From Simmondsia chinensis (lineage: Eukaryota > Streptophyta > Magnoliopsida > Caryophyllales > Simmondsiaceae), in the NCBI GenBank assembly GCA_018398585.1, contig JAGTTD010000001.1, forward strand, positions 24,807,438 through 24,871,437: a stretch of DNA of 64,000 nt, written 5' to 3'. Below, in pieces: positions 4,285 through 61,941 of this stretch (position 1 is the first letter of the stretch; each line of letters starts with the position of its first letter). A program made the position numbers and the translations under genes. Under the pieces are notes generated by a model. That model was not told the DNA's origin, searched no databases, and saw only the letters and a list, made by a program, of their open reading frames with translations.

Positions 4285-5340
4285 GGACAAGTCTAATTTA
4301 GTATATAATTATTCACATCAATTAGGTTCATTTTCTAACAATTTCGCTCCTATTGCTATTTCCATGAAAAAACGCTCTTTTTTGCTAAATCTTGCTAGGT
4401 TTTATTGTCAACACCAACAAGTGAATCCAAGATACGTCAAACAAAAGCAAGAAATGGGATAAATACATCAATTCTACACAGCTAAAGCAAGGATGAATAA
4501 CAAACAAGTACAATTTGTTATAAATTGTAAATTTGGGCAGCAAATGAACAAATCAGAGCAAGGATGCATTGTACACTTCAAAAATGTGTTCAAGTAGATG
4601 TAAAGACTGAATTTGGGTGACAAAAGCTGAAGCAAAATGAGAAAAATACGAAAACAAATTCAACTTGCAAAGGTAGACATCAAAGTCGACAAATGAGAGC
4701 AAAGCTTATGTAATTTTCTAGACTTTTGAGTTTGCAACCTTAAAAATTATAAATAGGAGTGTTTGGGAGGTCTTGGATCATCAATTCATTCCGAAAAAAA
4801 TCAATCCAAACTAGAAACAATAGAGAAAATTTGGATAGAAGAGGAAGGGAGAGAAAATAAAGAGTTTGGGATGTAATTTTTCAATTTGAAGTTCTTTTCT
4901 ATCCTTTTCTTCTTTAAGTTCATATATTTTATGTTAGTTTTTCTTTATATTATGTATACCATGAACTAATATTTTCTTTCTAAGGCTGTGACGTAGCCTA
5001 AGTTGTAATATACACTATTTTCTAATTCAAGATACTCAAACTTTGTTTATTACTGTGTTTGAGTGTTTATCATTGTTCTTCATGAGTTATGAATGCTTGA
5101 TCACCATTCCAAGCCTATAATGATTCATAAAAAGTCTGAGAGGAGATTTATGATGAATGCTAAAGTGATAAACATCACAAATTAAGCGAATGCTAGAGAT
5201 AGATTAATGCGATTTGTGTGGTCTTAAGTGCAAATCATGCATCTTCAAAACTCTTTTCTTATTTAAATTCATGAAAGAGATTGATGATTTATATATAAAA
5301 TAGCATGCTAAATGTTGGTCGAGAGAGAATATTTAGTAAA

Positions 5341-5569
5341 AGGAACATACCCAGTGCCTCAAGGGCTCCCGCCTACGCAGGGTCTGGAGGGCCGAATGTA
5401 CGCAGCCTTCCCCCTTCAGGGTGTTAACCTGAAGAGAGGCTGTTTCCCAGTGCCCCCAACCTGAGGGTGAGGACTTCCCAGGAGGTCACCCATCCTGGTA
5501 CTACTCTCGCCCAAGCACGCTTAACTTCGGAGTTCTAATGGGATCCGGTGACAGAGTGTTGGTGCCCTT
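5341..5569 (-). mobile_element. SINE with 5S rRNA-derived head and Au-like tail
   Basis: This 229-bp insertion is flanked by a perfect 9-bp duplication TTTAGTAAA (5332-5340 and 5570-5578). Paralogous LTRs at 27251-27259, 27943-27951 and 20467-20475 carry the single, empty target. Read on the minus strand, it opens with ~95 nt that closely match plant 5S rRNA from about its nucleotide 13 to 105, including ACTCCGAAGTTAAGCGTGCT and GATGGGTGACC. It then changes to GGAAACAGCCTCTCT, GGCTGCGTACAT, CAGACCC and finally CACTGGGTATGTT, which is the 3' body and end of Au-type plant SINEs. Known: plant SINEs normally have tRNA heads. Inferred: the 5S part supplies an internal Pol III promoter and the tail is recognised by an L1-type reverse transcriptase. 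Confidence 0.85.
5471..5527 (-). promoter_or_regulatory. 5S-type internal Pol III promoter in the SINE
   Basis: Minus strand 5527-5504 reads AAGTTAAGCGTGCTTGGGC plus GAGAG, covering the 5S A box. 5494-5471 covers the C box (GATGGGTGACC, then CTGGGAAGTCC). The intermediate element lies between them with normal spacing. Both boxes match the plant 5S consensus with only one or two changes. Presence of the boxes is seen; promoter activity is inferred. Confidence 0.7.
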
Positions 5570-5920
5570 TTTAGTAAATTAGGATTTTCAATTATCAACA
5601 TGCGATAACAACTTGAATATCGAGAATAGAAAGGCATATTGAAGCAATTAGGTGAAAACGGATGCCTTGGATCTTACTAAATCATAAAAATCATTTAAAA
5701 TTGGAACAATTTCTTAAAATCCGTAACCTTTTTTTTTCATTTTCATTTTGCTTTGTTTCATATCAAAAACTTCAAATTTCGGTCCTTCAAATAGTGCTGA
5801 AACTACTATTTTTGGTACTCATTCTCTAACAATCCTCATGGGATGATACTCTACTCATTTCTATATTACTTCATATGAATTAGTGGACTTGCTAAGCAAA
5901 CACCATAAGCATCACGTTTT

Positions 5921-15803: not shown

Positions 15804-17002
15804 TGATTGCTTGGTGTATTGCTGAGCAAGTGCACTAAGTCGTATAGAGTAATATAGAATGAGTAAAGCATCATTCCACTAGGATTGTTATTGAATGAGT
15901 AACAAAATTAGTAGTTTTAGCACTATTTGAAAGATTGAAATTTTTGTTATTGAAATGAAACAAACAAAATGAAAAGAACTAAATCAGGTTACTGGTTTTT
16001 GGAAAGTTTTCTGATGTTTATAATTTAATAAAGCACACAAATTTCGTTAATCTGTCTCTAGCATTCGCTTAATTTGTGGCATTATCACTTTAGCATTAAT
16101 CATAAATCTCTTCTTGGACTCATTATGAATCATTATAGGCTTTGAATGGTGATCAAGATTTCAAAATTGTTGAAGAACAATGGTAAACACTCAAACAGCA
16201 GAATAAACAAACTTTGAATACATTAAATTAGAAAAGATCGCATGCTACAAATTAGGCTACATTGTAGTCTTTGGAAGACAAAATTAGTTTATGGTATACA
16301 TAATATAAAGAAAAACTAAGACAAAATCAATGGACTTAAAGAAGAAAAGGATAGAAAAGAACTTGAAAATATGAAATTAGAAATAAAACTTTCCTTCTTT
16401 CCTTCCTTCTCCTATGGTTTTCCTAAGCTTCCTACTACTTTTGTTTTTTTGTTTTTTTTTTTTTTTTTTGTGGATGAATTCATGCTAAAAGACTTCTCAA
16501 ACACTCTTATTTATAGTGTTTGAGGTTGCAAATTCAAAAAATAAAAAAAATACATAAGCTTTGCTCCCATTTGTTCTTCTTGCCACCTATGTTCAGCTTT
16601 TTTAATCAACTTGCTGATTTCTTCAGTTTTTTCTCCATTCGCTACCCATATTTAGTTTTTACATCATCTTGAGCATGTTCTTGCAGTGTACAAGAAGTTC
16701 ATGCATTTGATTTGTCCATTTTTTCGCCCAAATTGTACAAGTTTGTTGTTCATCCTTGGTTTAGCATGTAGATTGATGCGTTTAGCCCATTTTTTGCTTT
16801 TGTTTGATGTATCTTGCATTCACTTGTTAATATTGATGGTAAAACTTAGCAAGAATTAGCATAAAATAAGTGTTTTTGCAAGGAAATAATGATAGGTGCA
16901 AAAATGAGCAAAAGAGAGCAAAAGCGAAAAAGGTTTGATGCAAAACGGTTTGAAAATGAACCTAAATGATATGAATAATTACATACTAAATTAGGCCTAT
17001 CA
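15804..17002 (-). mobile_element. 3' LTR of copy B
   Basis: 1199 bp; minus-strand start TGATAGGCCTAATTTAGTAT (17002) and end CAAGCAATCA (15804). It aligns with the 5' LTR at 20144-21396 with many substitutions and indels, so the insertion is old. A T-rich tract lies at 16441-16470. Confidence 0.8.
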
Positions 17003-17016: not shown

Positions 17017-18513
17017 AAATCTTGCTCATCCTCGAGCAAGGCTATATATTAAAGAGTAGGATCTCATGCTTTTTAAGAATTTTAACACAATTCAAAGCAA
17101 GACTACTTTTATTGGAAAAGAATGACCAAGGTTCGATGTTTAAGGTTCTAAAGGCAAAACAATCTTTCTAAGGAAAAAACTGCCAATCACCTAGGTAACC
17201 GTATTCAACAGTCGGCTAAGCAAATTAAGTTTATCCATTTTTTTCTAAAATCAAGACATTTAAACCAAATATATTACAAAAATCATGCCATTCATAACAA
17301 AACTTTTAACGTATTGGCCAAGACTAAAAGTCATTCACAAAATATTCTCCCCTTTTTTATATAATATTTATGAGGGACTGATCTATCCCAGTCAATCCCG
17401 GTTCATGAGTATATCTCCAATGTGAATCAAACTTCTAACCCCTGGGCAATGACCTCATGGGTAAGAGATGCCACCATTGACATGCCCTCAATATGACCGC
17501 GTGAGTATATCTTGAGTGAGAATTGAGCTCCTGACCCCTGGGCGATGATCGCATGGGTAAGAGACGCCACCACTGAGATGCCCTCATTATGACTGCATGA
17601 GTATATCTTCAGCGAGAAACGAACTCCTGACCCTCGGACGGTGACCGCATGGGTAAGAGAAGCCACCACTTAGACGCCCTCATGTTGAGCATCATATATC
17701 TTGAAATGTTTATATGGGATAGCGATGCTAGAGATGCTTCCATCATTTTCTCTATCTCGTTTTTTCATATTTTTCTTTAGACTTAGGCATAACTCTTCAA
17801 AGTCTATTATGCAAATGATAATCTTAATGTAATCCATTCAAATTTAAGCATCTTTTATTCAGAAAAAAGGTAAAAAAGCCATGCTAACTAGTGAACTCAA
17901 ACACCGCGATTTTATCAAGATAGTGCCTTAGAATAGATCATGCTTTGCATTTAGAACACAAAAACAATTGATTATTATGTTATTCAAACCTAATTAAAGT
18001 AAACGAGCTAAAAAGAGTAGAAAAATTGCCTAAAAAGCATGATGATAAGTTCTTTCATTCTTTTTTATATGAAAACTTTTTGAAAGATTAATGATAAAAA
18101 CTATAGAAAACAGACAATATTATTGTTGGCCGACACTATTTACATCCCCATACAAAGGCTCCGAACTCTGGGAGGCATTAAAACCAACTCTAAAAGATAA
18201 AATAGGATTGACAAGAAAAACTTTTAAAAAAATTTGTTCAAAATTTAAAAAGAGTGTGACAAAATGTCTCTCTCACCCTCAAACTTAAAAACTAACATTG
18301 TCCTTAATGTTAATAGAAATACAAGAAACGAAGCAGTAGGATAGAGATACTTCCCAAGTTTGAGGATTGCATTTTGATGGTGAATATTTGTCATCAGGGT
18401 ACCCTCAAACTTGTTTCAAAAAGTGTACAAAATATTAGAAAATAATAAAAATTAAAGGAAATTAAAAGAAATGAAGTAAGAAAGGAAAACTTGGGTTGCC
18501 TTTCAAGAAGCTC
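17017..18513 (-). other. 3' untranslated region of copy B
   Basis: Non-coding. It contains CTCATCCTCGAGCAAGGC near 17024 (the plus-strand mirror of the Athila TCGAGGATGAGC motif), the 96-bp repeat at 17405-17690 and AAACTTG/TTTGAGGATTGC blocks near 18355 that match copy A at 7690-7850. Confidence 0.6.
17405..17690. repeat. Three ~96-bp direct repeats
   Basis: Units begin (A/G)TGAGTATATCT at about 17405, 17502 and 17598. Each contains TGACCCCTGGGC- and GCATGGGTAAGAGA-like blocks and CCACCA, ending GCCCTCAT. The text resembles a degraded antisense tRNA-like segment (GAACTCCTGACC), but no complete tRNA can be folded by eye. Confidence 0.75.
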
Positions 18514-20143: not shown

Positions 20144-21396
20144 TGACTGCTTGATGTATTGCTTAGCAAGTGTACAAAGTCTTATCAAGTAATATAAAAT
20201 GAGTAGAGTATCGTCCCACGAGGATTATTAGTGAATGAGTAATAAAATTAGTAGTTTCAGCACTATTTGAAAGATTGAAATTTTAGTTTTTGAAATGAAA
20301 TAAACAAAATGAAATGAACTAAACTAGGTTACTAATTTTTAGAAAGTTTTCTGATTTTTCTGATTTATTAAGTTCCAATGCATCCAATTTCATCTCGTTG
20401 CATCAATATGCCATTCTATTCTCGATATTCAGGTTGTTATTACATGTTGATGGTCGAAAACCCTAATTTACTAAATATTCTCTCTTGAACAACATTTAGA
20501 ATGCTCTTTTGCATGTTAACTCATCAATCTCTTGCATGCATTTAAATAAGAAAAGAGTTTTGAAGATCCGTGGTTTTCACTTAAAACCATACAAATCGTG
20601 TTAATCCATCTCTAGTATTCACTTAATTTGTGGTGTTTAGCACTTTAGACTTCATCATAAATCTCCTCTCGGACTCATTATGAATCATTATAGGTTCTGA
20701 ATGGTGATCAAGAATTCAAAACTGTTGAAGAACAATGATAAACACTCAAACAGCACAATAAACAAACTTTGAATACGTTGAATTAGAAAAGAGCGTATAT
20801 TACAACTTAGACTACATCGTAGCCTTAGACAGACAAAATTAGTTCATGATATACATAATATAAAAGAAAACTAAGAAAAAATCTATGAACTTAAAAAAGA
20901 AAAGGATAAAAAAGAACTTGAAAATATGAAATTACAAGCCAAACTTATAGCGTCTCAGGTCACAAATTCAAAAAATAGAAAAATACATAGGCTTTGCTCT
21001 CATTTGTTCTTCTTGCCACTCATGTTCTAGTTTTTTAATCAACTTGCTGATTTCTTCAGTTTTTTCTCCATTTTGCTGCCCAAATTCAGTTCTTACATCA
21101 TCTTAACATGTTCTTGAAGTGTCCAAGAAGTTCTTGCATTTGATTTGTCCATTTTGCCACCCAAATTTGCAATTTGTAACAAATTGTACAAGTTTGTTGT
21201 TCATCCATGCTTTAGCGTGTAGATTGATGTGTTTAGCCCATATTTTCATATTATATTTGATTTATCTAGTATTCACTTGTTAAACCTAGCAAGAATTAGC
21301 ATAAAATGCACATTTTTGTAAGGAAATAACAATAGAAGCAAAAAGGAGCGAAAGCGATAAAAGTTTGATATAAAATATACTAAATTAGACTTATCA
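20144..21396 (-). mobile_element. 5' LTR of copy B
   Basis: 1253 bp; minus-strand start TGATAAGTCTAATTTAGTAT (21396) and end CAAGCAGTCA (20144). It carries the empty SINE target TTTACTAAA (20467-20475). Confidence 0.8.
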
Positions 21397-25854: not shown

Positions 25855-27596
25855 TGATAAGTCTAATTTAATATATAATTATTCATATCATTTTGATTCA
25901 TTTTCAAACCATTTTATATCAAATTTTTATCGCTATTGCTTGCTTTTGCTCTTTTTCGCTCCTATTGCTATTTTCTTACAAAACACTCATTTTGTGCTAA
26001 ATCTTGCTAGGTTTAATCATCAACAATAACAATTGAATGAAAGATATATCAAACAAAAGTAAAAATTGGGGTAAAACACATCAAAGCACACAGTGACAAC
26101 AAGAACAACAACAACATGCACAATTCACTTCAAATTTTAAAAAGGGGTGGCAAAAAGCACAAATCAAGAGCAAGGATGGATTAAACAATACACTGACATG
26201 TTCAAGTTGATGTAAACTCCAAATTTGAGTGGTGCAATGCTAAAAAAACTGAAGAAAAACCACAAGAACAGCAAGTTGCATGGGATGAACAACAAGCTTG
26301 AACAATTCACTTCAACTTGCAAAAATGGGTGGCAAAATAAAAGAAATCAAGTGCAAGGATGCACTATACACTTCAATAACGTTCATAATGATGTCAAGAA
26401 TGATTTTGGGTGGTGTAAGGCAGGAAAAAATGACAAAAAAAAAAGCGAGAACATCAAATGCAGAGAATGAACAACAAGCTTGCACAATTCACTTCAACTT
26501 GCAAATTTGGGTGGCAAAATGGACAAATAAAGTGAAATAATTTCTCGTACACTTAAATATCATGTTAAAATTAATGTAAATAAGGATTTTGAGCAGCCAA
26601 AGCTAAAAAAAATTGAAGAAATCAACAACAACTTAGCAACCTGCAAAAAGTGGCGGCAATGGCAGTGTGTGGTACAATGAGCTTTAAGCTTGCTATATTT
26701 TTTATTTTAAGTAATCCCAACCTTATGTACTACAAATAGAGAGGTTGAGGAGTTGTTTTGGATCATTCACTCAAAAAAAAAAGAAGGGGGGGTAGAGAAT
26801 TAGGTAGAAATTTGTAGGGAAGAAGGAGGACGAGAAAAGAAGAAGTTTGGTTTATGATTTCTTATTTTCAAGTTCTTTTCCATCATTTTCTTCTTTAAGT
26901 TCATGGATTTTGTCTTAGTTTTGTATTATATTATGTTTGAACTAATTTTGTCTTTCCAAGACTGCGATGTAGCCTTAGTTGTAAATTACCCTCCTTTCTA
27001 ATTCGATGTATTTAATATTTTGCTTATCGCGTTATTGAATTGTTTATCATTTTTCTTCATGAGTTTTGAGTTCTTGATCACCATTGAAACACACAAATTG
27101 AGTGAATACTAGAGATGGATTAACATGATTTGTATAGTTTTAAGTGGAAACCACGGATCTTCAAAACTCTTTTCTTATTTAAATACATGCAAGAGATTGA
27201 TGAGTTAACATGCAAAAGAGCATTCTAAATGTTTTTCAAGAGAGAATATTTAGTAAATTAGGGTTTTTGACCATCAACACGTAATAACAACTTAAATATC
27301 GAAAATAGAAAGGCGTATTGATGCAACAAGGTGAAATCGGATACCTTGGATCTTATGAAATTATAGAAATCATCTTAATCAATATGCCTTCCCTAAAATT
27401 AGTAAACACTTTTGTTCTTTTTCATTTTTTTTTATTTCATATCAAAAACTTCAATTTTCGGTCTTTCAAATAGTACTAAAGCTACTAATTTCAGTTCTCA
27501 CTCAATAATCAATCCTCGTGGTGACGATACTTTAATAACTCTGTATTAATTGATATGAATTGGTGCACTTGCTAAGCCAATACCAAGTAGGCATCA
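25855..27596 (+). mobile_element. 5' LTR of copy C
   Basis: 1742 bp; start TGATAAGTCTAATTTAATAT, end GGCATCA. It is longer than the other copies because a ~182-bp segment is present about three times (26109-26640). Empty SINE target at 27251-27259. Confidence 0.8.
26109..26640. repeat. ~182-bp direct repeats inside LTR C
   Basis: Units begin AACAACA(A/T)GC near 26109, 26288 and 26469. Each contains CACAATTCACTTCAA-like text, GGGTGGCAAAA and a CAAGGATG- or CACTT-rich part; the third is incomplete. Confidence 0.7.
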
Positions 27597-27869: not shown

Positions 27870-28289
27870 TATTTTAATTCATGCAAGAGATTGATGAATT
27901 AATATGTAAAAGAGCATACTAAATGTTTCTCAAGAGAGAATATTTAGTAAATTAGGATTTTCGACCATCAACATGTAATAAAAACTTGAATATTGATAAT
28001 AAAAAGGCGTATTGATGCAACTAGGTGAAATCGGATACCTTAGATCTTATTAAATTACTAAAATCATATAAAATCAAAATACATTTCATAAAATCAATAA
28101 ATATTTTTGTTCTTTTTCATTTTGTTTCATTTGATATCAAAAACTTCAATTTTCGGTCTTTCAATAGTGATAAAGCCACTAATTTTAGTACTCACTCAAT
28201 AATTAACCCTCACGGGAATGATACTCTACTCACTCTATATTAGTTAAACGGCTTAGTGCACTTGCTAAGCGAACACCAAGTAGGCATCA
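27870..28289 (+). mobile_element. Partial LTR (copy D / 3' LTR of copy C)
   Basis: Matches the last ~420 bp of LTR C, from ATGCAAGAGATTGATGA to the end GGCATCA, including the empty SINE target at 27943-27951. It is joined directly to the leader of copy C, so ~1.3 kb of LTR and the internal region were deleted. Confidence 0.7.
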
Positions 28290-28639: not shown

Positions 28640-29179
28640 TGTAATGATCCGAGAATCCAAGGCATGAGCTGGTGGTGGCTGTGCTGCTGTGGTGTTCGCT
28701 GCTGCTGGTGCACGTGCTGTTTGCCTGCTGTGGTGGCCGTCTTGTAGCTATTTGATGATCGTTAGTGTAGGAAAGTTGTATTAGAGTGTGGATATTGTAA
28801 CTAGAATAAGTCTTTGATGTAATTAGTTGCATAAGTTCCTTGTTAAGAGATGTAATAGGTGAAGTCTAGAGCTTGTTAGCTGCGATGGTCGAGCTAGTGG
28901 TCAATGCCGGTCATTAGTGGCGGCTAAGTAGGTGGTTGGCGGTTATAGCATGAGTTAGATGCATTGTAATAGATCATGTCATGTATGTAGTATAAATTGT
29001 AAGGCTTTGGCTTGTAATCTCATAACTTTGATGAATGAAATTGATATCTTTGATCTCTCTCTCTACTTCTCATCTCCTTTCCCTTCTTATCTCATCTAAA
29101 CTCCAAATTCTCTCCTCATCTCATACTCTCACTATCCCAACAAAGGTTAAGGTCCAAGAGTGATCTTTGAATCTTAACA
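28640..29179 (+). mobile_element. 5' LTR of element H
   Basis: Starts TGTAATGATCCGAGAATCC and ends GAATCTTAACA; TATA box TATAAATT at 28991-28998. GC-rich CTGCTGTGG-type repeats lie at 28665-28740. Aligns throughout with 33455-33995. Confidence 0.9.
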
Positions 29180-29181
29180 AT

Positions 29182-29194
29182 TGGTATCAGAGCC
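29182..29194 (+). promoter_or_regulatory. Primer binding site of element H
   Basis: TGGTATCAGAGCC, a perfect initiator tRNA-Met PBS, two bases after the LTR. Confidence 0.9.
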
Positions 29195-30431
29195 TTGATT
29201 TGGCTTCCGAATCAAGCTCTAAAATAGGAAAAATATAAAATCTGATTGATTGTGTTGCAATTAATTAACAAAAAAAATTTTGATACTGATTTAGTTCTGT
29301 TTATGTGATCAAGAATTCAATTCTGAATTCTGAATTTGAAGATTGGTGGTTACTGCCTTATTGATCTGCAAATGCCTAGGAATTGCTTCGGTTGGGATTA
29401 ATTTGATTGAGTTACATTGAAGAAAGTTTAATTGATTAGTATTTGTCGAAATACATTCAACATCAAAGCTGATTCAGATTGAATTCAGTAGAATTGATCA
29501 AGCATTATCTGCTGAAGTTTAGTGCTGAAGCAAAGCATTAGTTGCTAAAGTTGAGTGCTGAGCATAATTATTCTTGATCAAATATTCACTTGATCTGTTG
29601 GAGAAGAAGTTAAAGTGAGCTATTGGATCAACATTACACTTGATCATAATCAAAAGATCAGAAACATGTTGCATTGAGGTGATTTCAGGTTCTATAATTC
29701 AGTAGTTGAGGTTGAGGTAGCGATTTTCTAAACTTCAAGTTACAATTCAATCAGAATCTGTGCTTGTTGTTGGTTTGTGATATAATTCGTGTTGATAAGC
29801 ATAGAAGTGGTGAGAATTCAATTGATTCTTAAGAATTATATGTTATTGAGTTAAGGTTTTCTTAGTCGAGAATCTAACATTGAGCTGAGGACCAAAAGCG
29901 TTGAACTTTGATTTCGTTCTTGAAGATTGCCTGAGTAATGTGTTGAGAACTTGATTGCGATCTAGAACCAAGTTTAATTCAAAATTGTAAGTCTAAATAT
30001 TCAAGAAAGCATCTCTGTTAGGGTTCGTTCATGAATTCTGCAAGTTAGGGTTTGTTCGAGTTCTTTGTGTGGCGAAAAACCCGCGTATTAGGGTTTGTAA
30101 TCAGTGACGATTGAGGTACCGTTAGCAAGTGATGGTTGTCTAAGTGAAGGAGTATAATTTCTTTAAGCAATCATCTGTTGAAGTGATTTGAATCAAATTT
30201 TGTTCTTTTGCGAACTGAGTTGGTTCTTATCTCTACGAACTGAGTTGGTTCTTTTTGAAACGCTGCTTAATATTGCAAATATGGTTGGTATGTTGATGAC
30301 AGCTCTTTTCAATTTGTGATGAGTGATCCTTGGTAGAAAATAAAGCAAGAATTGAGACAAGAACCCAGGAGTTCTAGCAGAAAATGAAACAGGTATGGGA
30401 CGAAGAGCTGCAGCGAATTTTTGATTGGTAG
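29195..30431 (+). other. Long leader of element H
   Basis: About 1.2 kb with frequent stops in all frames and no recognised motif. Short repeats GAACTGAGTTGGTTCTT occur at 30212 and 30236. A short open stretch with ATG at 30384 precedes a TAG at 30429 that closes the frame of the main ORF. Confidence 0.5.
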
Positions 30432-31667
30432 TGTTCGGCTCATCAGTTTGCAAACATCAATCGAGATTGTGCTGGTGTTCTTGATGCAAATGACTTTCCG
30501 GAGCTAGTGGATAGCGTTAGACAACAAGAGTTCAATGTTAACCAAAAAGAGAAAATGGAATCTGTTGCTTTTGAAGATGAATTCGACCACGATAATGCCG
30601 AAACTGATGAACACAAGTTAGAAGAGCCAAAGTTTGATCAAGATGATCATTATGAAGACTCTTTGCTAGAGTTAAAGTATTTTGAAGATGATGAGCTACA
30701 GCAAGATTTGCTTCCGGAATTGGAATATGACTCACATGTCAAGAGAATGATAAAGAAAGCGAAGAGCAAAGTGAAGAGAAGCCATCTAAGTGAAGCATTG
30801 AAAGATTTTTGGGGTAAAAAGAAGTTGACAAAGCCGAAATTGAAGCGTGAGGTTGTGTGTCTGCCTAAGGAGCTTCTAAGTTTGCAAGAACGGAACAATG
30901 GACTACCGGTTGCTGCTGTAATTGAGTCCAATTCAGCTATAGGACATCGGGATGATCCACTGGAAGAAGTTAGGATGCTTGATGATAAACAAGAACTAAC
31001 TCAAGATACTGATTTTACCCGTGCATACGCTGGAATACAAGGTTCATATATATATACTGGTATACAAGGATTGGTTACAGCAGAATCTTTGATTTCAACT
31101 GAAAAATGTGATGCTACTGCTGTAATATTGTCGAATACATCACCAAATCTGTTATGTATTACTCCATGGCAAGCTGGTATGCAGAATCGAAGCATCTTCA
31201 CTATTCAACTATCACATTCTATTGAGAAATCAGTTGTTGCTGCTGTGGTACTACCTGATGCAGAACAAGGTGTGCTTTTGTGTGGAGAAAAAGTGTATTC
31301 CAATACACACTCTTATGGCGAGTTGCCTCCTGATTCGGGAGAAGATACTCAAGGCTATGTGAAGCTAAAAAGAGTTGATTTTATGTTGAAACAAAGTAAT
31401 CAAGCTGCAAGAGTGAGTTTCAAGGTTCAACAAAGGAGAAGCATTGTGTCTATACAAGCAATTGAGTTGTTGGGGGTGTATAATTTCAGTAAAGCGCTGA
31501 GACAGATTTCGGTTCAGACTAAAATCAGTACAATCGATGCTTTAACTGATGAAATTGCTGTTGGAAGTCCCTTTGATCCGGGTAAGGTAGATCATCATTG
31601 TACCAAGCTGAAATACGAGGTCGAGTTGGAGGAAAGGTTCAAGCAAGCTGCTAAAATCATTTCCTGA
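30432..31667 (+). CDS. Unknown acidic/basic protein ORF in element H
   Basis: An open frame of 411 codons; the first in-frame ATG is at 30555 (MESVAFEDEFDHDN), giving ~371 residues. I do not recognise the family. Seen: a very acidic N-terminal ~75 residues (Glu/Asp-rich), a strongly basic patch KRMIKKAKSKVKRSHLSEAL and KKKLTKPKLKRE at about residues 65-100 after that ATG, then a mixed, partly hydrophobic C-terminal part with repeats AYAGIQGSYIYTGIQG. No zinc knuckle, DSG protease or RT signature. The same frame continues past the single TGA at 31665-31667 to 32090, so the ancestral ORF may have been longer. The basic patch could bind nucleic acid (inference). It could be a captured host coding segment or a highly diverged gag-like ORF. 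Confidence 0.6.
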   Translation, partial: CSAHQFANINRDCAGVLDANDFPELVDSVRQQEFNVNQKEKMESVAFEDEFDHDNAETDEHKLEEPKFDQDDHYEDSLLELKYFEDDELQQDLLPELEYDSHVKRMIKKAKSKVKRSHLSEALKDFWGKKKLTKPKLKREVVCLPKELLSLQERNNGLPVAAVIESNSAIGHRDDPLEEVRMLDDKQELTQDTDFTRAYAGIQGSYIYTGIQGLVTAESLISTEKCDATAVILSNTSPNLLCITPWQAGMQNRSIFTIQLSHSIEKSVVAAVVLPDAEQGVLLCGEKVYSNTHSYGELPPDSGEDTQGYVKLKRVDFMLKQSNQAARVSFKVQQRRSIVSIQAIELLGVYNFSKALRQISVQTKISTIDALTDEIAVGSPFDPGKVDHHCTKLKYEVELEERFKQAAKIIS

Positions 31668-32090
31668 GTTCAATTTAGGCCTAGTTTAACTTCTGGAAGA
31701 ATTCTTAACATGCTACAAGTTCACAAATTGGGTACTAATCTAAAAATTGGGTTTGTTCAGCCAAGATCCAGTAGTATTGAAGGTCTTTGGGTTATGTTTG
31801 ATATTAGAAGACCCCCTGAGGCCTTGGTGGAATCTGGTAGCTGCATCTGTTCTAAAATGGCAATGCTGGACAGTATTGAGGCAAGTGTATTGAGCTCCAA
31901 ATTCAGATTATACATTAATCAAGCTATGGGCAGAGAACAAGCTCCATTAATGCAACCAAATGTGAGTTCTCTTGAAGTTATGGGGCTTGGTGGTTGGGGG
32001 GGTTTGATTTTGGAATACAAAAGCTTTTGGTGGGAAATTCAGAATTGTGGCAGTATGGGATCATATTACAGAATTATGGCTCATTTGTGA
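31668..32090 (+). pseudogene. Same-frame continuation of the unknown ORF
   Basis: In the same frame as 30432-31667 and separated from it only by one TGA. It has 140 further codons, with LQVHKLGTNLKIGFVQPRSS and MFDIRRPPEALVESGSC. No known domain recognised. A run of seven G at 31996-32002 lies inside it; the other frame open from 31994 suggests a frameshift here. Confidence 0.4.
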
Positions 32091-32551
32091 TCTGCTGTGG
32101 GTGTTCTGAATGGAAAAATCATATGCACAGGCTTCAATATATCCTCAATGTTTGGATGAAAAGGATCAATGCAACATCAAGGGTAACTCTAGTTGGAATT
32201 GGAGTGAATACCAGCAAGGTAGTTTGGAACATAACAACTCTAAGTTTGAAGGAGTTTACAGTTGTTCGAGAGTTCTTTTGGTGTCTCCACTTGTTTTATT
32301 TGTTACTCATGCTTGAGATGGTTAACAAGGAAGCAAAGCTTGATCTTTTGAGGCATGTTTGGTGGCTGGACGAGCACTGGATCCAGGAAAGTCTTGAGAA
32401 AAGGCTGGATGGTGTGAGCTGCAGCATTAACATTGTCGATTGGAATGTTTTGGAAGTTCAAGTTATGACATTGTGTCTTGGGCATTCAACAATGGTTTAT
32501 GAACACTTAGTTTGTGCGGTCTATGCTGGAGTTTTGGAGGAAAAGGCATAG
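31994..32551 (+). pseudogene. Second unknown ORF in element H
   Basis: 185 codons, overlapping the previous segment by ~97 bp in another frame, starting at the G7 run. Trp/Cys/Leu-rich: SEWKNHMHRLQYILNVW, EFFWCLHLFYLLLMLEM, DLLRHVWWLDEHWIQESLEK. A hydrophobic stretch near residues 90-110 could be a membrane segment. The same frame stays largely open to about 33100, with stops at 32549, 32816 and near 32998 and with segments such as LSAVDELLRLSVDGAIVALG. No family recognised; translation is uncertain. Confidence 0.35.
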
Positions 32552-33441
32552 ACTTTCAGACCTTACAAGTTCACTCTCAAGATTCAAGCAATGGAAGTAT
32601 TAGAGGCTACTAAACAATCTTGGAGAATCAAAATTCCTTCACTATCAGCAGTAGATGAGCTGCTTAGATTAAGTGTGGATGGTGCTATTGTGGCTTTGGG
32701 AAGATGTATTATCTTGTCAGCAGCAAGTAGCTTCCATAATCGAGCTGAAATTTGTAATATCCGCAGCAGTGAGTTGTCTTGGTTATACACTGCTGAATTC
32801 TCTAGCTCTGCAGCATAACATGTGGAATTAGGAAGCAATCAAGAGTTTGTTGAGCTTGGTCTGAGATGGTTTAGTAAGTGGATATTTATACAATACAAAT
32901 TTTGGATAAGATGCAAAGTAAAGTGGTTGCAGCTACATTTTTATGGGATCTCAATGTGTTTTGTCACCAAGATCAAGATATGGGGATGTTTTAGCTAAAA
33001 TTGGGAAATGGTTCAAGCAGATTTTGACCTTGGTTCTCTTGGTTTGAGTTGGGAAGGCCTCTCGAGATGCTTAAGGACTTCATGTGCAGTCGTATGGGTT
33101 TAATGACATTCAAACTCTGTTCTGCAGCATTTTACAAGCAGAATTACAGAATTGTTGTTGTGTTTTATGATTCTCAGCAGCAAGATAGAGTTTTGAGCTG
33201 TGGTAACTGCATCATGAGGTGTCATGGATGTGTTGTTGATGTTTGGTTTGATCAGTGCAGACCTCCTAAAGAGTATTGTACATTCAAACGCAAACGTTCT
33301 GTCGAAACAAGATGTCATCCTCATGTATCTGCTGCATTTCAGATTGAGTTGCTTCAGATGTCTTCCAGCTGCATAACTTCAGCAAGAAGTTGATCTTCCT
33401 TTTTACAACTCTCTTCTATTCTTGCGGACAAGAATGTTTTC
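32552..33441 (+). pseudogene. Further decayed coding-like part of element H
   Basis: Open pieces at 32591-32818 and 33049-33393 with no recognised motif. Base composition is like the upstream ORFs, unlike the AT-rich neighbouring LTR elements. It reads up to the polypurine tract, so the whole 30.4-33.4 kb span may once have coded. Confidence 0.35.
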
Positions 33442-33454
33442 AAGGGGAAGGGAA
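33442..33454 (+). promoter_or_regulatory. Polypurine tract of element H
   Basis: AAGGGGAAGGGAA directly upstream of the 3' LTR. Confidence 0.8.
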
Positions 33455-33995
33455 CGTTATGATTCGAGAATCCAAGGCATGAGCTGGTGGTGGCTGTGCT
33501 ACTCTTGTGTTCGCTGCTGCTGGTGCACGCTGCTGTTAGCCTGCTGTGGTGGCTGTCTTGCAGCTCTTTGATGATCGTTAGTGCAGGAAAGTTGTATTAG
33601 CGTGTGGATATTGTAACTAGAATAAGTCTTTGATGTAATTAGTTGCATAAGTTCCTTGTTAAGTCATGTAATAGGTGAAGTCTAGAGCTTGTTAGCTGCG
33701 GTGGTCGAGCTAGTGGTCAATGCCAGTCATTAGTGATGGTAAGTAGGTGGTTGGCGGTTATAGCCTGCTTAGATGCAATGTAATAGATCATGTCATGTAA
33801 GTAGTATAAATAGTAAGGCTTAGGCTTGTAATCTCATAACTTTGATGACTGGAATTGATATCTTTGATATCTCTATCTCTACTTCTCATCTCCTTTCCCT
33901 TTTTACCTCATCTAAACTCTAAATTCTTTCCTCATCTCATACTCTCATTATCCCAACCAAGGTTAAGGTCCGAGAGTAATATTTGATTCTTAACA
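33455..33995 (+). mobile_element. 3' LTR of element H
   Basis: Starts (C)GTTATGATTCGAGAATCC, ends GATTCTTAACA; TATA box TATAAATA at 33805-33812. It differs from the 5' LTR by scattered substitutions and a few small indels, so the insertion is fairly young compared with its host. Confidence 0.9.
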
Positions 33996-40429: not shown

Positions 40430-42480
40430 TATTCAAAAAATTTATGTATGCACCTAGAGCTCCTCAAGAGCTTCATTTGGATATAAAATTTGATCCAAAA
40501 CTCTCCACGAATTGAAAGTTATGCCCATTTTAACTTGTAAGGTAAGTTATACGACTTACCTACGTCTAGCTTGCCCAAAGCCCTTTTTGGGTACTTTTTA
40601 GCACCAAACATTCAAAAACTTTATATGAGTTTCTAGAGTGCCTCAAGAGCTTCATTTTGATATAAAATTCGATCCATAACTCTTCACGGATTGAAAGTTA
40701 TGTCCATTTTAAATTGTAAGGTATGATATATGTTGTACCTACGTCTAGCTAGCCAAAAGCCTTTTTAGGTACTTTTTATCATCAAACATTCAAAACGTGT
40801 TTTATGGGGACCTAGTTCTCCTCAAGGGCTTCATTTTGACAGAAAACTTGATCTGTAACCCTTCACAAATAGAAAGTTATGTCCGTTTTAAGTTGTAAGG
40901 TAAGTTGTACGCCAAGTACGCGTCTAGCTCGTCAAAAGCCTTTTTTGTGTACTTTCTGCCATCAAACATTCAAAAAATTTATATGGATGCCTAGAGCACC
41001 TCAAGAGCTTCGTTTTTATATTAAATTCAATCTATAACTCTTCATGGATTGAAACTTATGTCCGTTTTAAGTTATAAAGTAAGTTATACACCTAGTACGC
41101 ATCTAGCACTCTAAAAGCCTTTTTCGGGTGCTCTTCTGTCACCAAACGTTCAAAAAATATAAGTAGGTGCTTATAGCTCATCTAGGTCTTCGTTTTGATA
41201 TAAAATTGGATCTGTAACTCTTCACGAATTGAAAGTTATTTCCGTTTTAAATTGTAAGGTACGTTATATGCCTTACCTACGTCTAGTTTATCAAAGGCCT
41301 TTTTTAGGGACATTCTGCCATCAAACATTCAAAAACTATTCATGGATGCCTAGAGCATTTCAAGGGCTTCATTTTTGTGTAAAATTCGATCCGTAGCTCT
41401 TCACGGATTGAAAGTTATGTCCGTTTAAAATTGTAAGGTAAGTTGTATGCTTAGTACGCGTCTTGCTCGCAAAAAGCCTTTTCAGTTACTTTCTATCATC
41501 AAAAAAACTTTATATGAGTGCCTAGAGCTCCTTAAGAGCTTCATTTTGATATAATTGAAATTTCTGTCCATTTTATGTTGTAAGGTGAGTTGTACACCTA
41601 GCATGTGTCTAGCTCGCCAAAAGCCTTTTTTGCTTACTTTCTTTCACCAAACATTCAAAATTTTGATATAGGTGCTTAGAAATCATCAAGAGCTTAATTT
41701 TAATATGAAGTTCGATCCATAAGTCCTTAGTGGATTGAAAGTTAGGTCTGTTTTAAGCTGTAAGGTACGTTATATGCCATATGTGCATCTAGCTCGCCAA
41801 AAGATTTTTTGAGGTACTTTCTGTCATCAAATGTTCAAATGATTTATATGGACACCTAGATATCCTCAAGAGCTTCGATTTCATACAACACTTGGTCCGT
41901 AACTCTTCACGGATTGAAAGTTACGCTTATTTTAAACTATAAGGTAAATTATATGCCTTACTTGCGTCTAGCACTCCCAAGTCACTTTTTATGTACTTCT
42001 TTTCTTCAAAAGTTTAGAAACTTTCTATGGGTGCATAGAACGCTTCAATAGTTTCATTTTGATATAAAATGTGATCCATAACTCTTCATAGATAAGAAGT
42101 TACGCCTATTTTAATTCGTATGGTATGTTACCTAACCACAACGGGCAATTTGTTGTGTCGATTCACCTTTTCATGCCTTCTTTGATCCAAAAGCTCTAAA
42201 AATCATGGTAGTTATATAAAGACCTTCAATATTTTCATTTTGATGGGTGATCTAGCTCGTAGCTTCTTGGGAATTCAAAGCTATATTTGTTTAAGTCTCG
42301 GGGTTAACTTATATAAACCAGCAATCACTACCATGTTTTGTAAACGCCAATCACTTCTTTGATATCTTTTCTTTAAAACATGAGAAATTATGCTAGTTGC
42401 ATAAAGTTCTTTGAGAGCTTCATTTTGATATAAAACTCACATTCTAACTCCCACTGATTTAAAATTTATATCCGTTTAAA
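40430..42480. repeat. Satellite-like array, ~180 bp x ~11-12
   Basis: Units begin TTCAAAAA(A/C)TTTATATG near 40432, 40611, 40789, 40969, 41150, 41329, 41500, 41653, 41833, 42010, 42190 and 42375. Shared blocks: CCTCAAGAGCTTCATTTTGA, TCTTCACGGATTGAAAGTTA, TTGTAAGGTAAGTTATA, ACGTCTAGCTCGCCAAAAGC. Most spacings are 177-185 bp, with shorter units at 41500 and 41653; the last three units are the most diverged. No coding. It lies ~320 bp after the Tat PBS. Confidence 0.9.
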
Positions 42481-42795: not shown

Positions 42796-42948
42796 CATGC
42801 TTCTACTCACGCACACTTGTGTTGCCTTGACCCATGGCACCCTATACACCTTACTCTAGTGTGGCCAAGCTGCCACCAACAGCCAACTTCAGCCACCCCC
42901 ACTGGTGGCTCTCTCTCTTTTTCCTCCACTGAACCCAGGTCAACTTTT

Positions 42949-43330
42949 ATTACAATCATTGTTTAATTCAACCCTAAAAGAGTCAATTTTTATTACAATC
43001 TTTGTTTAATTCAACCCCAAAAGGATCAATTTCTATTATAATATTTGTTTAATTCAACCCTAAGAGGGTCAATTTCTATTATAATCTTTGTTTAATTCAA
43101 CCCCAACAGGGTAAATTTCTATTATAATCTTTGTTTAATTCAACCTTAAAAGGGTCAATTTCTATTATAATCTTTGTTCAATTCAACTCTAAAAGGGTCA
43201 ATTTCTATTATAATATTTGTTTAGTTCAATCATAAAAAGGTAAATTTCTAATACAATCTTTGTTTAATTCAACACTAAGGGGTCAATTTCTCGTTACAAT
43301 CTTAGTTGAACCTAAACCTAAGGTGTCAAT
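42949..43330. repeat. Tandem array, ~44-45 bp x ~8
   Basis: Unit GTCAATTTCTATTATAATCT then TTGTTTAATTCAACCCTAAA and AGG. Regular to ~43265; degenerate CAACC...TAATTT relatives continue to ~44110. Confidence 0.9.
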
Positions 43331-55760: not shown

Positions 55761-56085
55761 GTAGCACTAAGTTTTACGCCCTTAGCCGAGTGCAATGGGT
55801 CCAACGAAGATCACAAAATGACATCAACCAAAGAAGCCACCTAAGGCAACACCTATAGTAAAATCAGAAGCATCACACATGATTTCAGGAGGGACAGAGT
55901 AGACGGGTGGATGCCTAATGGGGGCAGCAACCAGCGTAGACTAAAGCTTATGAAAAGCTTCTAACCAAGACTTATTGAACTCAAAAGATATGTCCTTAGC
56001 TAGCAAACTAGTCAATGGTTTGGCTAACTTCCCATGGTCTTGAAGAAATCCTCTATAGAAACATGTATGATTTAAAAAGGCTCTA
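55761..56085 (-). pseudogene. Athila-type RT/RNase H fragment (downstream half)
   Basis: Minus strand from ~56085: FLNHTCFYRGFLQDHGKLAK, PLTSLLAKDISFEFNKSWLE, AFHKL, stop, LVAAPIRHPPVYSVPPEIMC, DASDFTIGVALG. This is the RT-to-RNase H connection of gypsy pol (family form FLGHAGFYRRFI..FSKIA.PL...; ..MCDASD.A.GAVLGQ). It stops right after the first RNase H Asp region and passes into 3' UTR, so most of RNase H and all integrase are deleted. It is the continuation of 61947-62045 across element I. Confidence 0.8.
56081..56085. repeat. Target site duplication of element I (left)
   Basis: CTCTA directly before the LTR, identical to 61942-61946. Confidence 0.9.
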
Positions 56086-56455
56086 TGTTATAAATCGTTG
56101 GAATTTCATTGTAATTTTTGTTTGTAGTGTTGGATTAGTTTCTCAAGTTGAAGTGGTATATTTTCAAATGTTGGTTGGGTCGGTAGTTGGCGCCAATAGG
56201 GGGAGTTGGTCAAACACGAGTCAAAGGTGGTGTGCGGCTGCATTTTAGGCGCGAAAGTCGGTTGGGCTTTTGAGTCTTGGTTCTTTGCACTTAGTTGCCT
56301 ATAAATAAGCTCCTAGGTTGTAATATCAATCATTCAATGAAATACAACTGAATTTCCTTTGGAATTCTGTCTTTCTCATCCCTTTTTCCTTCTCTTCTCA
56401 TCTTAACTCCTTCCTCTACAAGGTTAGGCCTTCAATCTTGAATTGGAACCTAACA
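56086..56455 (+). mobile_element. 5' LTR of element I
   Basis: 370 bp, TGTTATAAATCGTTGG ... GGAACCTAACA; TATA box TATAAATA at 56300-56307. Confidence 0.95.
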
Positions 56456-56457
56456 AT

Positions 56458-56470
56458 TGGTATCAGAGCC
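56458..56470 (+). promoter_or_regulatory. Primer binding site of element I
   Basis: TGGTATCAGAGCC, perfect initiator tRNA-Met type, two bases after the LTR. Confidence 0.95.
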
Positions 56471-56679
56471 TCGTTTGGCTTCCAAATCGAGTGCGTAAAC
56501 AAAATTTAACAACTAAAAAATTAAAAAAATTATGGATTCAGTAACTGAATTCTAGTCAGTTCAATCGATACGAAATCAGTTCAGGTTTCGTATTAGAAAT
56601 CAAGATCAAATACAGATTTCAGCTAATTCAGATCTGTTGAAGATAAGTGATCGAGGTTCATTCATAATCTGATTCGAGG

Positions 56680-57165
56680 ATGTCTGGTGGAGTAAGGACC
56701 AGGTCAGGAGCTGGAGGAACCGTTGCACCTGGTTCGGATATGAATTATATGGCGGCAGTAACAGATTCTGGTGTAAATGTACCATCTGACCATATCAAAG
56801 ACTTGAGTGACAAGATCGAACAAATGAATGTAAAGTTTGATATGAAGTTTGAACAACAAAATGATAAGATCGAACGAATGCTGAACATGTTGATGGATAA
56901 AGATTCAAAAAAGGATGAACGATTACAACAAATTGAGAATAAATTAGAAAAATTGCAAGATCAGGTTAATAAGCAAGGAGAATCAAGTGTGGAGGCAATC
57001 TTGAAGCCTGCAAGTCTGATTTTTCACCAAAAAGAACCCGACCTGCAGCAAGAGCATGTTGACAGGTCTGAAAATCTGGTAAGTAAACATGGCAAATCAC
57101 CGGTAGTGCAACCGATGGTTGAACCTTCAATTAATATCAGATCAGCTCTAAATCAATCCATGTAG
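56680..57165 (+). pseudogene. Gag N-terminal part of element I
   Basis: 161 codons from ATG 56680 (MSGGVRTRSGAGG) to a TAG at 57163-57165. Residues ~35-110 form a coiled coil (IKDLSDKIEQMNVKFDMKF, RLQQIENKLEKLQDQVNKQG). The remainder of gag continues in another frame from about 57190, so a frameshift near 57165-57190 splits the original polyprotein. The equivalent N-terminus in the sister element is at 1644-1300. Confidence 0.8.
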
Positions 57166-57189
57166 ACAATTAGAATTGAGTCTCTGGTT

Positions 57190-60100
57190 AGGCACCTTGC
57201 AGACCTGAAGCATCGAATCCAGATCACAACAGCAGGCCTCAGAATTCTGTTTTGCAACGCAGTGTTGAACTTGATGAGATCGAACATTTGGACAGACCTC
57301 CTGATCGACATTTTCAGCATAGAAACGTGAGTAATGACATGATATCCGGTAGCAAAAGTAGTAATCACAGGCAACTAAGAGTTAAAATTGATCCTTTTGA
57401 TGGCAAATTACCAGAGTCGTGGCTTAGAAAGTGTGATAGGTACTTCATGTATTATGACATTCCAGAGGATGAAAAACTCCAATTAGCTGCAGTACACCTA
57501 CATGGTGACCATGAGGTGTGGTATTACAGTTTGTTAAAGAGCAAACCAAACCTTTCTTGGGGCCAATTCGTGGAGGAAATGTGTGAACGCTATGGAGGGG
57601 GAGAAGCAACGGATGTTGTGGATAACTTTAACAAGCTGACTCAAACTTCTTTCGTGAAGGAATACATGATCAGATTCGAGAACTTACGAGCTAACTTACT
57701 GTCAGTGTTGACCTTAGCTCCCGAAGATGTCGAATCTTATTACGTTTCATGCTTTATAAGTGGTCTTAAGCCTAGGATCAAGAACATGGTGAAAGCCATT
57801 GGTCCTAAGACTTTGTCAAGTGCTTATAATAAGGCACTATTGATTGAATCCACTCACATTCAATCGGTTGACAAAGTTAAGCAGCTGAACAGCAGGTACC
57901 GGCCACAACAGAAAACAGAGTGGAACGCAGGATCGGGTGCTGGATTCAGGCGTGCGGTTAACAGAGGTTCGGTGAGACTATGCTTTCGTTGTGATAAGCC
58001 ATATCAGCCCAGACATAGGTGCAAATCGCAAGCAATAATGTATGCAAAAGGGTCCCAGGTGGAAGCTGAATCAGGTAGTGAGCATTCTGCTGCAGATAGT
58101 GACAGCATTGGCGATCTTTCACAAGATGAATTGAGTGAGGATGAAGTAGAGATATCAATGAAAGCGTTAACCGGTAATGGAGCTCACAACACAATCAAAA
58201 TCAGAGGCAAGGCTGGTAAACATTCCATCATTATCCTCATTGACAGCGGAAGTACACATAGCTTCATCGATCCCAAACTGAGTAAGAAGGTTAGGCATGA
58301 AACAATAAAGACTCATCCTTTGCAAGTGATGGTGGCTGATGGCAATTCCTTAACCATTCACAACAAATGCATAGCGTTGCCTTGCTCTATGCAAGAACAT
58401 CGTTTCACCTTTGATTTTCGAGTTCTTCCTTTGGGAGGTTGCGACATGGTGCTAGGGGTGGATTGGATGAGAACCTTTAATCCGGTCGTGTTTGATTTCG
58501 ATAAGATGACCGTGGCATTCGAGGTTCATGGCTCCAAAGTGTCCTTGAAAGGCATGATAGAGGATGCTCAACTCAAGATAATTGATGGCAAACGGGTACA
58601 CGATGGGATCAAGAAGAAGGCGACACAATGGATAGGTCATTTATTCATGATATCATCGGTTGACTTGCAGCCGGGACTTCAACCAGAAGTGCAAGCCTTA
58701 GTGAATGAATTTGATGATATCTTTGAGCCTCCTAAGAGTCTCCCTCCTCCGAGAAGTGTGGACCATGCCATTCCCTTGTGTGCGAACGCCGATCCCGTGA
58801 AGATTAGGCCTTACTGTTATGCACATGGCCAAAAATCAGAATTAGAAAGGCAAGTGGAGGAACTTCTTAATATGAACTTCATTCGCCCAAGCCATAGTTC
58901 TTTCGCTTCACCTGTGATCCTTGTGAAGAAGAAAGATGGCTCGGCTAGAATGTGTATTGACTACCGCCGGTTAAATGCTCTCACGGTGAAGGATAAGATT
59001 CCCATTCCGATCATAAACGATTTGCTTGATGAACTACATGGGTCGTGTTTCTTTTCAAAGCTGGATTTGAGGCAAGGATACCATCAAATCAGGGTTCTTG
59101 AGCCGGATATTTACAAGACAGCTTTTCAAACTCACCATGGCCATTTCGAGTTTGTTGTGATGCCTTTCGGCTTGACTAATGCTCCGGCCACGTTTCAAGC
59201 AGCCATGAATGATGTTTTCAAACCTTTTCTGAGGAAGTCGGTGCTCGTTTTCTTCAATGACATACTAATTTATAGCTCGACATGTGAAGCTCATCTTAAT
59301 CACCTCCGACAAGTGTTTGAATTGATGCGACAACACAAGTTTTTTGCGAAGTTGACCAAGTGTTCGTTTGCTCAAGATAAACTCGAGTATTTGGGGCACA
59401 TCATCTCTCATGAGGGAGTATCTACTGATTTGAACAAGATCCGTGCAATGCAAGAATGGGCAATTCCGCTCACCTTGAAGAAATTGAGGGGATTCCTGGG
59501 TTTGACCAGCTATTATAGAAAATTTATTAGGGGATATGGTTCTATTGCCAAACCCTTGATCGAGCTTTTGAAGAAGGATGCTTTCACATGGAACGAGAGA
59601 TCTCAAGCCGCATTTGAAGCCCTTAAAGCTGCAATGTGTGCTGCCCCAGTTTTGGCGATGCCGGATTTTACCGAAAGCTTTATTTTAAAGACCAATGCAA
59701 GTGGTACTGGTATAGGGGTTGTTCTTTCCCAAAAAGGAAGGCCTATTGCTTACTTAAGTTAGGCCCTTAGCCCTAAACATCAAGCGATGTCAACATATGA
59801 GAAGGAATATCTCGCCATCCTCTTAGCCGTGCAGAAATGGAGACAATACTTGGAGGGTCATAAGTTCATCATTAGGACGGACCACCAAAGCCTCAAGTAT
59901 CTCTTTGAGCAAAAGATCGTGATGAGGATTCAGAAGAAAGGCCTCTTGAAAATGTTAGGCCTTGATTACGACATCAAATATAGAAGTGGCAAAGAGAACA
60001 CTGCAGCAGATGCACTGTCAAGGCAGTTTGAGGATGAAAATCAGGCTACCTGTGCTGCTGTAACCATGGTAATACCTTCTTGGGTGCAAGAGCTATACAA

Positions 60101-61520
60101 GTCCTATGAGAGTGACCCATTTGCTCAGGAAAAAGTGGCCGCTGCAGCCCTCACACGCAATGCAAAGTTCGGTTCTGCAGACAGTGGGGTATCGGTACAG
60201 CAGGGACTGATCAGGGTTGAGGGGTTGTTATACGTTGGTTCTGCCACTAACTTGAGAGAAATGGTCATCCAAGCTTCACATGATGCTGCTTGGGGTGGTC
60301 ATGAGGGTGTGGAAGGTACCTAACAACGAATCAAAGCATATTTTACGTGGCTAAGTATGAAGTAAGAGGTGAGTGAATACGTGAAGTCGTGTGAGGTATG
60401 TCAACAAACGAAGTTGGGAGATCCTTGTTACAAAGGACTTCTTCAGCCTCTTCCCATTCCGGAGGGAGCTTGGGTTCATATTAGCATGGATTTCATTGAG
60501 GGACTTCCGAAATCCGAAGGTAAGGAGGTCATATGGGTCGTGGTGGATCGTTTCACCATGTAAAGTCATTTCATTGCTCTTGTTCAACCCATCACCGCTG
60601 AAAAGTTGGCAAGGATCTTCCTTGACAACATTTATAAGTTGCATGGATTGCCTTAATCCTTTGTGTCCGATCGAGATAAGATTTTTACAAGCATGTTCTG
60701 AAGAGAGTTGTTTAAGTTGTTGGGCACCACATTGGCACTCAGCTCCTCATATCATCCTCAGACAGATGGCCAAACCGAGCGAGTCAATCAATGTGTGGAA
60801 CAGTATTTGCGAAGTATGGTCTTCTTGAAGCCCAAGGAGTGGAACCGTTGGCTTTCCTTAACCGAATTTTGGTTCAATACACACTTTCATACATCTATTG
60901 GCACTTCTCCATTCCAAGCATTGTATGGTTACTCTCCACCCTCTCCTATGATGCTCCAACAGCCGAGAAGCAATGGTACTGCAGTAGTAGATTTGCTGTA
61001 GCAGAGAAGACAGATGTTGCAAGAGCTAAAAGACAATCTTCATCAAGCTCGAGCTCGGATGAAGTATTATGCTGATAAAAAAAGGGTAGACAAGAGTTAT
61101 GACGTTGGTGAAATGGTCTACCTAAAATTACAACCGCATAGACAGTCGTCCTTGGCTGTCAGGCGTAATGTCAAGCTAAGTGCCCGATACTTTGGCCCGT
61201 ATAAAATTTTGGAGAAAATTGGCAATGTTGCTTATAAACTTGACTTACCTCCACACTCGTACATTCACCCCGTGTTTCACATGTCCCTACTCAAAAAGCA
61301 GGTCCAAAGAGGTGCTGCAGCAGCCCGGGAGCACCCTGTAGCAGAGGCCAATGGCATTCTGAAATTGCAGCCAGAAGCTGTTGGAGCTCGGAGGACGTTG
61401 CAGCTGGAACAAGGAGCTGTGCAGGAGGTTTTGGTATCATGGTGCAACTTGGACAAGAGTTTGAGGACTTGGGAAAATCGCAATTTCTTGCGGAGTCTAT
61501 TTCCGAGCTTCACTTCTTGA
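57190..61520 (+). pseudogene. Gag-pol polyprotein of element I
   Basis: Open 57252-59762: gag core (FDGKLPESWLRKCDRYFMYY), zinc knuckle CFRCDKPYQPRHRC (~58000), protease LIDSGSTHSFID (~58240), RT 58840-59290 (CIDYRRLNALTVKDKIPIPI; KLDLRQGYHQI; VMPFGLTNAPATFQ). The catalytic box reads VFFNDILIYS instead of FFDD: its first Asp is Asn. After TAG at 59760 come RNase H (TDHQSLKYLF) and integrase: HDAAWGGH...CEVCQQTK, then MDFIEGLP, SDRDKIF and QTDGQTERVN, keeping D, D and E. Stops at 60321, 60363, 60561, 60654 and 60699 and a frameshift near 61000 follow. The C-terminus (to 61520) has a GPYKILEKIG...YKLDLPP segment and a short chromodomain-like VSWCNLDKSLRTWE. Not functional. Confidence 0.95.
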
Positions 61521-61534
61521 GGACAAGAAGTTTC

Positions 61535-61549
61535 TCAAGAGGGAGGGAA
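61535..61549 (+). promoter_or_regulatory. Polypurine tract of element I
   Basis: CAAGAGGGAGGGAA immediately before the 3' LTR. Confidence 0.85.
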
Positions 61550-61941
61550 TGTTATAAATCGTTGGAATTTCATTGTAATTTTTGTTTGTAGTGTTGTATT
61601 AGTGTCTCAAGTTGAAGTGGTATATTTTCAAATGCTGGTTGGGTCGGTAGTTGGCGCCAATAGGGGGAGTTGGTCAAACACGGGTCAAAGGTGGTGTGCG
61701 CCTGCATTTTAGGCGCGAAAGTCGGTTGGGCTTTTGAGTCTTGGTTCTTTGTACTTAGTTGTCTATAAATAAGCTCCTAGGTTGTAATATCAATCATTCA
61801 ATGAAATACAACTGAATTTCTTTTGGAATTCTCTCTAATTTCTCATCCCTTTCTCTATTTCTCATCCCTTTTCCCTTCTCTTCTCATCTTAATTCCTTCC
61901 TCTACAAGGTTAGGCCTTCAATCTTGAATTGGAACCTAACA
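61550..61941 (+). mobile_element. 3' LTR of element I
   Basis: 392 bp, same ends as the 5' LTR; TATA box TATAAATA at 61764-61771. The 22-bp excess is a tandem duplication of CTCATCCCTTTCTCTATTT-type text near 61846-61870. Confidence 0.95.

Follow-up and report, generated by a model that had tools for sequence, protein, structure and literature searches.

At positions 5341–5569 of the window, the 64-kb stretch of Simmondsia chinensis DNA analysed here, a 229-bp element is inserted on the minus strand, with its 5' end at 5569 and its 3' end at 5341. The element is flanked by two exact copies of the target site duplication TTTAGTAAA (no strand assigned), one at 5332–5340 on the element's 3' side and the other at 5570–5578 on its 5' side. 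The two copies are identical over 9 bp and unmutated, which bears out a preliminary description of this DNA that had claimed an insertion of 229 bp flanked by a perfect duplication of 9 bp. When 20,000 random 229-bp blocks were drawn from the window and each end was allowed to slide by 3 bp, a perfect 9-bp flanking repeat was found in 14 of them. The repeat that surrounds the element is a dispersed family within the window, with 73.9–88.5% identity over the larger matches. Four related copies were aligned, of which three spanned the site and all three were empty, carrying a single TTTAGTAAA and no insert at 27249–27257 (plus strand), 27943–27951 (plus strand), and 20467–20475 (minus strand). 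These empty sites had been placed at 27251, 27943, and 20467, and all three were found, the first being 2 bp away, at 27249. The fourth related copy, near 16034, was uninformative about the insertion, because the stretch around the site is absent there (matches end at window position 5220 and restart at 5704). The low chance rate of the 9-bp repeat, together with the empty sites, therefore makes the case for a single insertion firm, and positions 5341–5569 are a real, sharply bounded copy of a 5S-headed retroposon. Self-comparison identified no second copy of the 229-bp element elsewhere in the 64-kb window.

Other repeats were observed in the same window. A Ty3-type element occupies 56085–61941, with ends (56085–56455 and 61549–61941) that are 91.6% similar and polyprotein ORFs between them, and its left end is followed by ATTGGTATCAGAGCC, which we take to resemble a methionine tRNA primer site. 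A second pair of similar ends (92.4%) was found at 28641–33995, also with the primer-site-like ATTGGTATCAGAGCC, and a 411-aa open frame within this region (30432–31667) had no Pfam match. Across the five window ORFs that were searched against Pfam, one Ty3-type polyprotein and one fragment with SH3_Tf2-1 were recognized, and nothing was found for the remaining three. A satellite-like tandem array at 40431–42088 has units of ~179 bp (6.3 copies, 74% matches in 40431–41554) and also fits units of 359 bp, out to 42088, and another tandem array at 42938–43307 repeats a 43-bp unit 8.6 times with 85% matches. At 17404–17683 there are approximately three head-to-tail units of 96 bp with 82% matches, which on the minus strand slightly resemble degenerate tRNA-type promoters (AGGAGTTCGTTTCTC and AGGAGCTCAATTCTC). 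Neither an exact GTTCGA nor a tRNA (by ARAGORN) was found at 17404–17683, which could possibly be a trimeric tRNA-derived SINE head.

The 5' part of the 229-bp element is derived from 5S rRNA. Rfam family RF00001 (5S rRNA) matched window positions 5568–5463 on the minus strand with 65.9 bits, the sole Rfam match at the gathering score in the window, and the element searched alone against the Rfam 5S model gave an E value of 4.3e-14. There was no further 5S-like stretch in the window at E values up to 10. As delimited by Rfam, by published probes, and by the end of protein-level similarity, the conserved 5S core, which extends up to GTCCTC and includes the internal control region, lies at 5469–5545 on the minus strand. 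On the same strand, it contains the A box region AAGTTAAGCGTGCTTGG (5511–5527), the intermediate element region GCGAGAG (5504–5510), and the C box core GATGGGTGACC (5484–5494), each placed where we take its extent to be. Compared with two angiosperm 5S probes, which cover most of the control region, the head was identical at 28/29 and 23/24 letters (51/53 in total) (PMC7413363), and 40 of 41 letters were identical to a plant 5S FISH probe (PMC11121585), which indirectly supports a plant host. Plant chromosome studies give a 30-letter piece of the 5S control region as a probe. From the A box to the C box, a single letter differed from the published probes, and the control region, whose A and C boxes had been proposed to be intact, is nearly unchanged. 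Natural 5S reading frames continued past SWEV(L/F) into VLH, as 5S normally does, in all eight matches, and the element departs from 5S at this point, which places the end of the 5S part at window position 5469. Counted ungapped from a published probe, the head spans about nt 13–107 of 5S. The preliminary description had given nt ~13–105; the 5S identity of the head and its start at nt 13 stood, and the end was moved nearer to nt 107.

The upstream part of the head is less well conserved than the boxes. It corresponds to 5S nt 13–30 (window 5546–5563, minus strand), where 13 of 18 letters matched an angiosperm 5S probe (PMC7413363). In the Rfam alignment, the head opens with AGGG, which is followed by a gap of ~7 nt before nt 13, and there is a block change at 5S nt 22–25. 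The changes clustered upstream of the boxes (5/18 vs 2/53, p = 0.0096, Fisher test), a value that overstates the clustering because four of the five upstream changes form one block at a spot where natural 5S reading frames vary too; the natural frames compared at this block were biased toward copies without the usual stop there.

The joint between the 5S head and the body, ACCCTCAGGTTGGGGG, occupies 5453–5468 on the minus strand. The longest word common to the joint and the 3' end was 4 bp, and that common to the joint and the 5' end was 6 bp (GGGCAC), compared with 9 bp for the two ends of the insertion. As there is no duplication at the joint, the 5S head and the body entered together. It had been suggested that separate insertions of the 5S and Au parts would speak against a single chimeric element, and inside this copy neither part was found to have a duplication of its own. 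At the joint, GGTTGGGGGCA (5451–5461, minus strand) has three mismatches to GGTTCRANNCC and may be a decayed B box, in which case a head swap would lie near the old tRNA promoter. The best match to GGTTCRANNCC anywhere in the element had two mismatches, GTTCRA and CTTARA were absent from both strands of the element, and ARAGORN scanned the whole window without detecting a tRNA. The loose A-box pattern [GA][CGA]TGG occurred three times in the sense and once in the antisense orientation of the element. The element is thus without an intact tRNA B box.

The body and 3' end of the element lie at 5341–5452 on the minus strand and contain GGAAACAGCCTCT, GGCTGCGTACAT, and CACTGGGTATGTT, which we take to be motifs of Au and Angio-domain SINEs. 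The presence of Au-like motifs in the 3' body had been reported, and the letters of the motifs were found at 5396–5407 and 5344–5356, their likeness to Au being our assumption. By itself, GGCTGCGTACAT is weak evidence because its match count was near the expectation (two matches at up to two mismatches, one of them exact, vs 1.49 expected). No SINE-titled paper was among the literature matches to words of the body. A hairpin with the form CTTCAGG-loop-CCTGAAG was predicted in the body at 5414–5434 (minus strand). A special stability of the RNA was considered and rejected, since the predicted fold had a z-score of −0.08 and 83 of 200 shuffles were at least as stable. The element contains 8 CpG dinucleotides vs 19.6 expected.

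Nowhere inside the 229-nt element do three or more T letters stand in a row. Because TTTT was likewise missing from 77.2% of dinucleotide shuffles, this absence is weak evidence. The short T tail that characterizes the Au family was found as TTTT at 5338–5341 on the minus strand, which consists of the element's final T followed by TTT of the duplication, so that three of its four letters belong to the duplication too. This TTTT likely served as the overlap of U tail and priming site and as a Pol III stop. It occurs only at the border between the 3' end and the duplication, where a Pol III transcript that was primed at AAA would be expected to have it.

Plant SINEs usually have a tRNA head. We propose, with a probability of about 0.6, that the element is a non-autonomous retroposon (SINE) that belongs to a family and combines a 5S-derived Pol III promoter head with the T-tailed body of an Au/Angio-type plant SINE. 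At the internal 5S boxes, TFIIIA and TFIIIC would recruit Pol III, and the transcript would run through the body and end at the oligo-T formed by the 3' end and the flank. As there is no internal T run of at least three, Pol III should read through the element. A partner LINE would recognise the 3' body of the RNA, and after the LINE nick, the end ...GTAAA-3' would pair with the U tail and prime reverse transcription, leaving the 9-bp duplication. Such pairing between ...GTAAA-3' and an RNA that ends in U would account for the overlap of tail and duplication. In the weakest step of this scheme, this copy would not be a lone accident but a member of a family that originated when the head was exchanged close to the former B box. 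We hold more tentatively, at slightly less than even odds, that this is a propagating plant SINE family that replaced its tRNA-type (type 2) Pol III promoter with one of the 5S type (type 1), kept its Au/Angio 3' module, and would be missed by structure-based searches for tRNA A and B boxes.

Membership of a family, as opposed to a one-off chimera, appears somewhat probable to us. The duplication is unmutated, so the altered letters of the head, and its gap ahead of nt 13, probably arose before the insertion, which favours an origin from a master copy that has a history. In the rival explanation, a LINE reverse transcriptase would have started at the 3' end of the RNA from an Au-type SINE and then jumped to 5S rRNA as its template, giving a chimeric retrocopy that was a dead-end insertion. 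U6/L1 and 5S/L1 template-switch chimeras occur in mammals, and as in those chimeras, a 5' small RNA and a retroposon 3' end lie here within one duplication. This is a serious rival, which we consider less likely than a family. It is consistent with the single copy within the window, with the 51/53 identity of the 5S part to plant 5S probes, as for a fresh 5S copy, and with the protein-level relatives listed for three frames of the element, all 12 of which were plain 5S without the body. By frame, four of four and eight of ten candidates were listed as relatives, each a plain 5S ORF, and none of six was in the third frame; one of the eight plain 5S ORFs was named Stylosanthes scabra. Unlike that expected from a fresh switch, however, the head is neither clean and full-length nor simply truncated (AGGG, the ~7-nt gap, and the nt 22–25 block), and its changes and gap are seemingly older than the insertion, in contrast to the U6/L1 and 5S/L1 chimeras. 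Another of those eight, P0011, aligned over 80% of the query, but once past the 5S part its alignment has 12 gaps, and we take this extension as chance. The joint and body patterns had no matches in viral contigs or in bacterial and archaeal contigs, and a 38-letter 5S pattern had none in viral contigs. These results are uninformative on the copy number in plants because the collections are viral, bacterial, and archaeal. The 229-bp element also had no match in plasmids and phages.

A 5S-headed SINE could also have acquired its head from the LTR of a Cassandra TRIM instead of a 5S gene. Cassandra is described as widespread in plants, with conserved boxes and a 5S region that has a core of ~70 bp and exceeds 100 nt in some species, and by the same description it tends to vary beside the boxes (MotIE and MotC) (PMC10853983). 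The element, in contrast, differs from the 5S probes by only one letter between the A box and the C box. We consider this source improbable. The different origins of the head and the body could reflect nested insertions, in which a 5S retrocopy came by chance to lie directly beside an independent, 5'-truncated Au SINE, but one duplication encloses both parts, the joint shares repeats of at most 4 bp with the 3' end and at most 6 bp (GGGCAC) with the 5' end, and both parts are missing from all three empty sites. We therefore rejected nested insertions as very improbable. An assembly or cloning artefact was given still less credence; only one record was examined, but a misassembly would not be expected to produce a target duplication that is exact, or empty sites that agree with it.

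The proposed 5S-headed SINE shares features with several known systems. It resembles the SINE3 class of animals, including the lepidopteran HaSE3, in having a 5S head with a kept control region and a diverged upstream part, a short non-coding body, and an insertion with a target site duplication that encloses both parts. It differs from SINE3 in its plant host and in its body and T tail, which we take to be plant SINE-like. With the Au and Angio-domain SINEs of seed plants it shares a T-ended tail and, as we assume, the body and 3' motifs, but a tRNA-related head such as Au SINEs carry, with its boxes A and B, was not found here. Angio-domain SINEs are characterized by a conserved 3' domain of 37 bp. 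Like the Cassandra TRIM, it is a plant retroelement with a 5S-derived Pol III promoter. In contrast to Cassandra, the element is 229 bp long, has 5S at its 5' end, and lacks the two-LTR layout, as it matched itself only over its whole length, with no internal repeat pair that could be LTRs. The target duplication of Cassandra is 5 bp, unlike the 9 bp found here, and Cassandra is also characterized by a methionine tRNA primer site and a polypurine tract. Cassandra elements are described with full lengths of 563–968 bp and with the 5S region inside the LTR and never at the termini (PMC10853983). Au SINEs have been tabulated with (T)2–5 tails (PMC3747384), and the wheat Au is ~181 bp (PMC5787218), vs 229 bp for the element. 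SINE3, AmnSINE1, and the springhare Ped-1 are listed as 5S rRNA-derived SINEs of animals (PMC3747384), and Ajax and the lepidopteran SINE3 are described as having kept the promoter and diverged in the upstream part (PMC10886601). Aspergillus fumigatus has 5S rRNA-related SINEs (PMC5063351), which by their description are likewise 5S SINEs outside animals but belong to a fungal host.

Previous studies give several statements on promoter exchange in SINEs. According to a 2024 paper on Cassandra, the capture of 5S promoters is known for animal SINEs, and promoter reshuffling in SINEs is credited to Seibt 2020 (PMC10853983). A 2010 paper mentions 5S-headed SINEs "including plants", but the reference given is to Cassandra. 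Two Arabidopsis loci of ~160 bp were called "SINE3" in a 2005 paper that, in the text covered, does not state the head type (PMC1297646). Among the matches listed, no plant 5S-headed SINE was named in titles or abstract openings, a coverage that mostly excludes the subscription literature. The literature found describes 5S-headed SINEs in animals and fungi, and Seibt 2020, the key plant paper, may already contain one.

AnnoSINE lists 5S rRNA among the SINE head types. As described, its structure-based stage relies on the A and B boxes of tRNA, and candidates near known RNAs are discarded afterwards, with a default Rfam E value of 1e-15 (PMC8825457). Searches of the AnnoSINE type may thus have a blind spot for an element without a B box. 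With an E value of 4.3e-14, the element would narrowly escape the 1e-15 filter, and copies nearer to 5S might not. If the family exists, a plant SINE can switch its promoter class and yet keep the 3' end recognised by the LINE, and the family would allow the modular evolution of SINEs, and the question of which SINE part is required by the LINE machinery, to be tested cleanly. Such a family would add another plant element, beside Cassandra, that exploits the 5S transcription factors.
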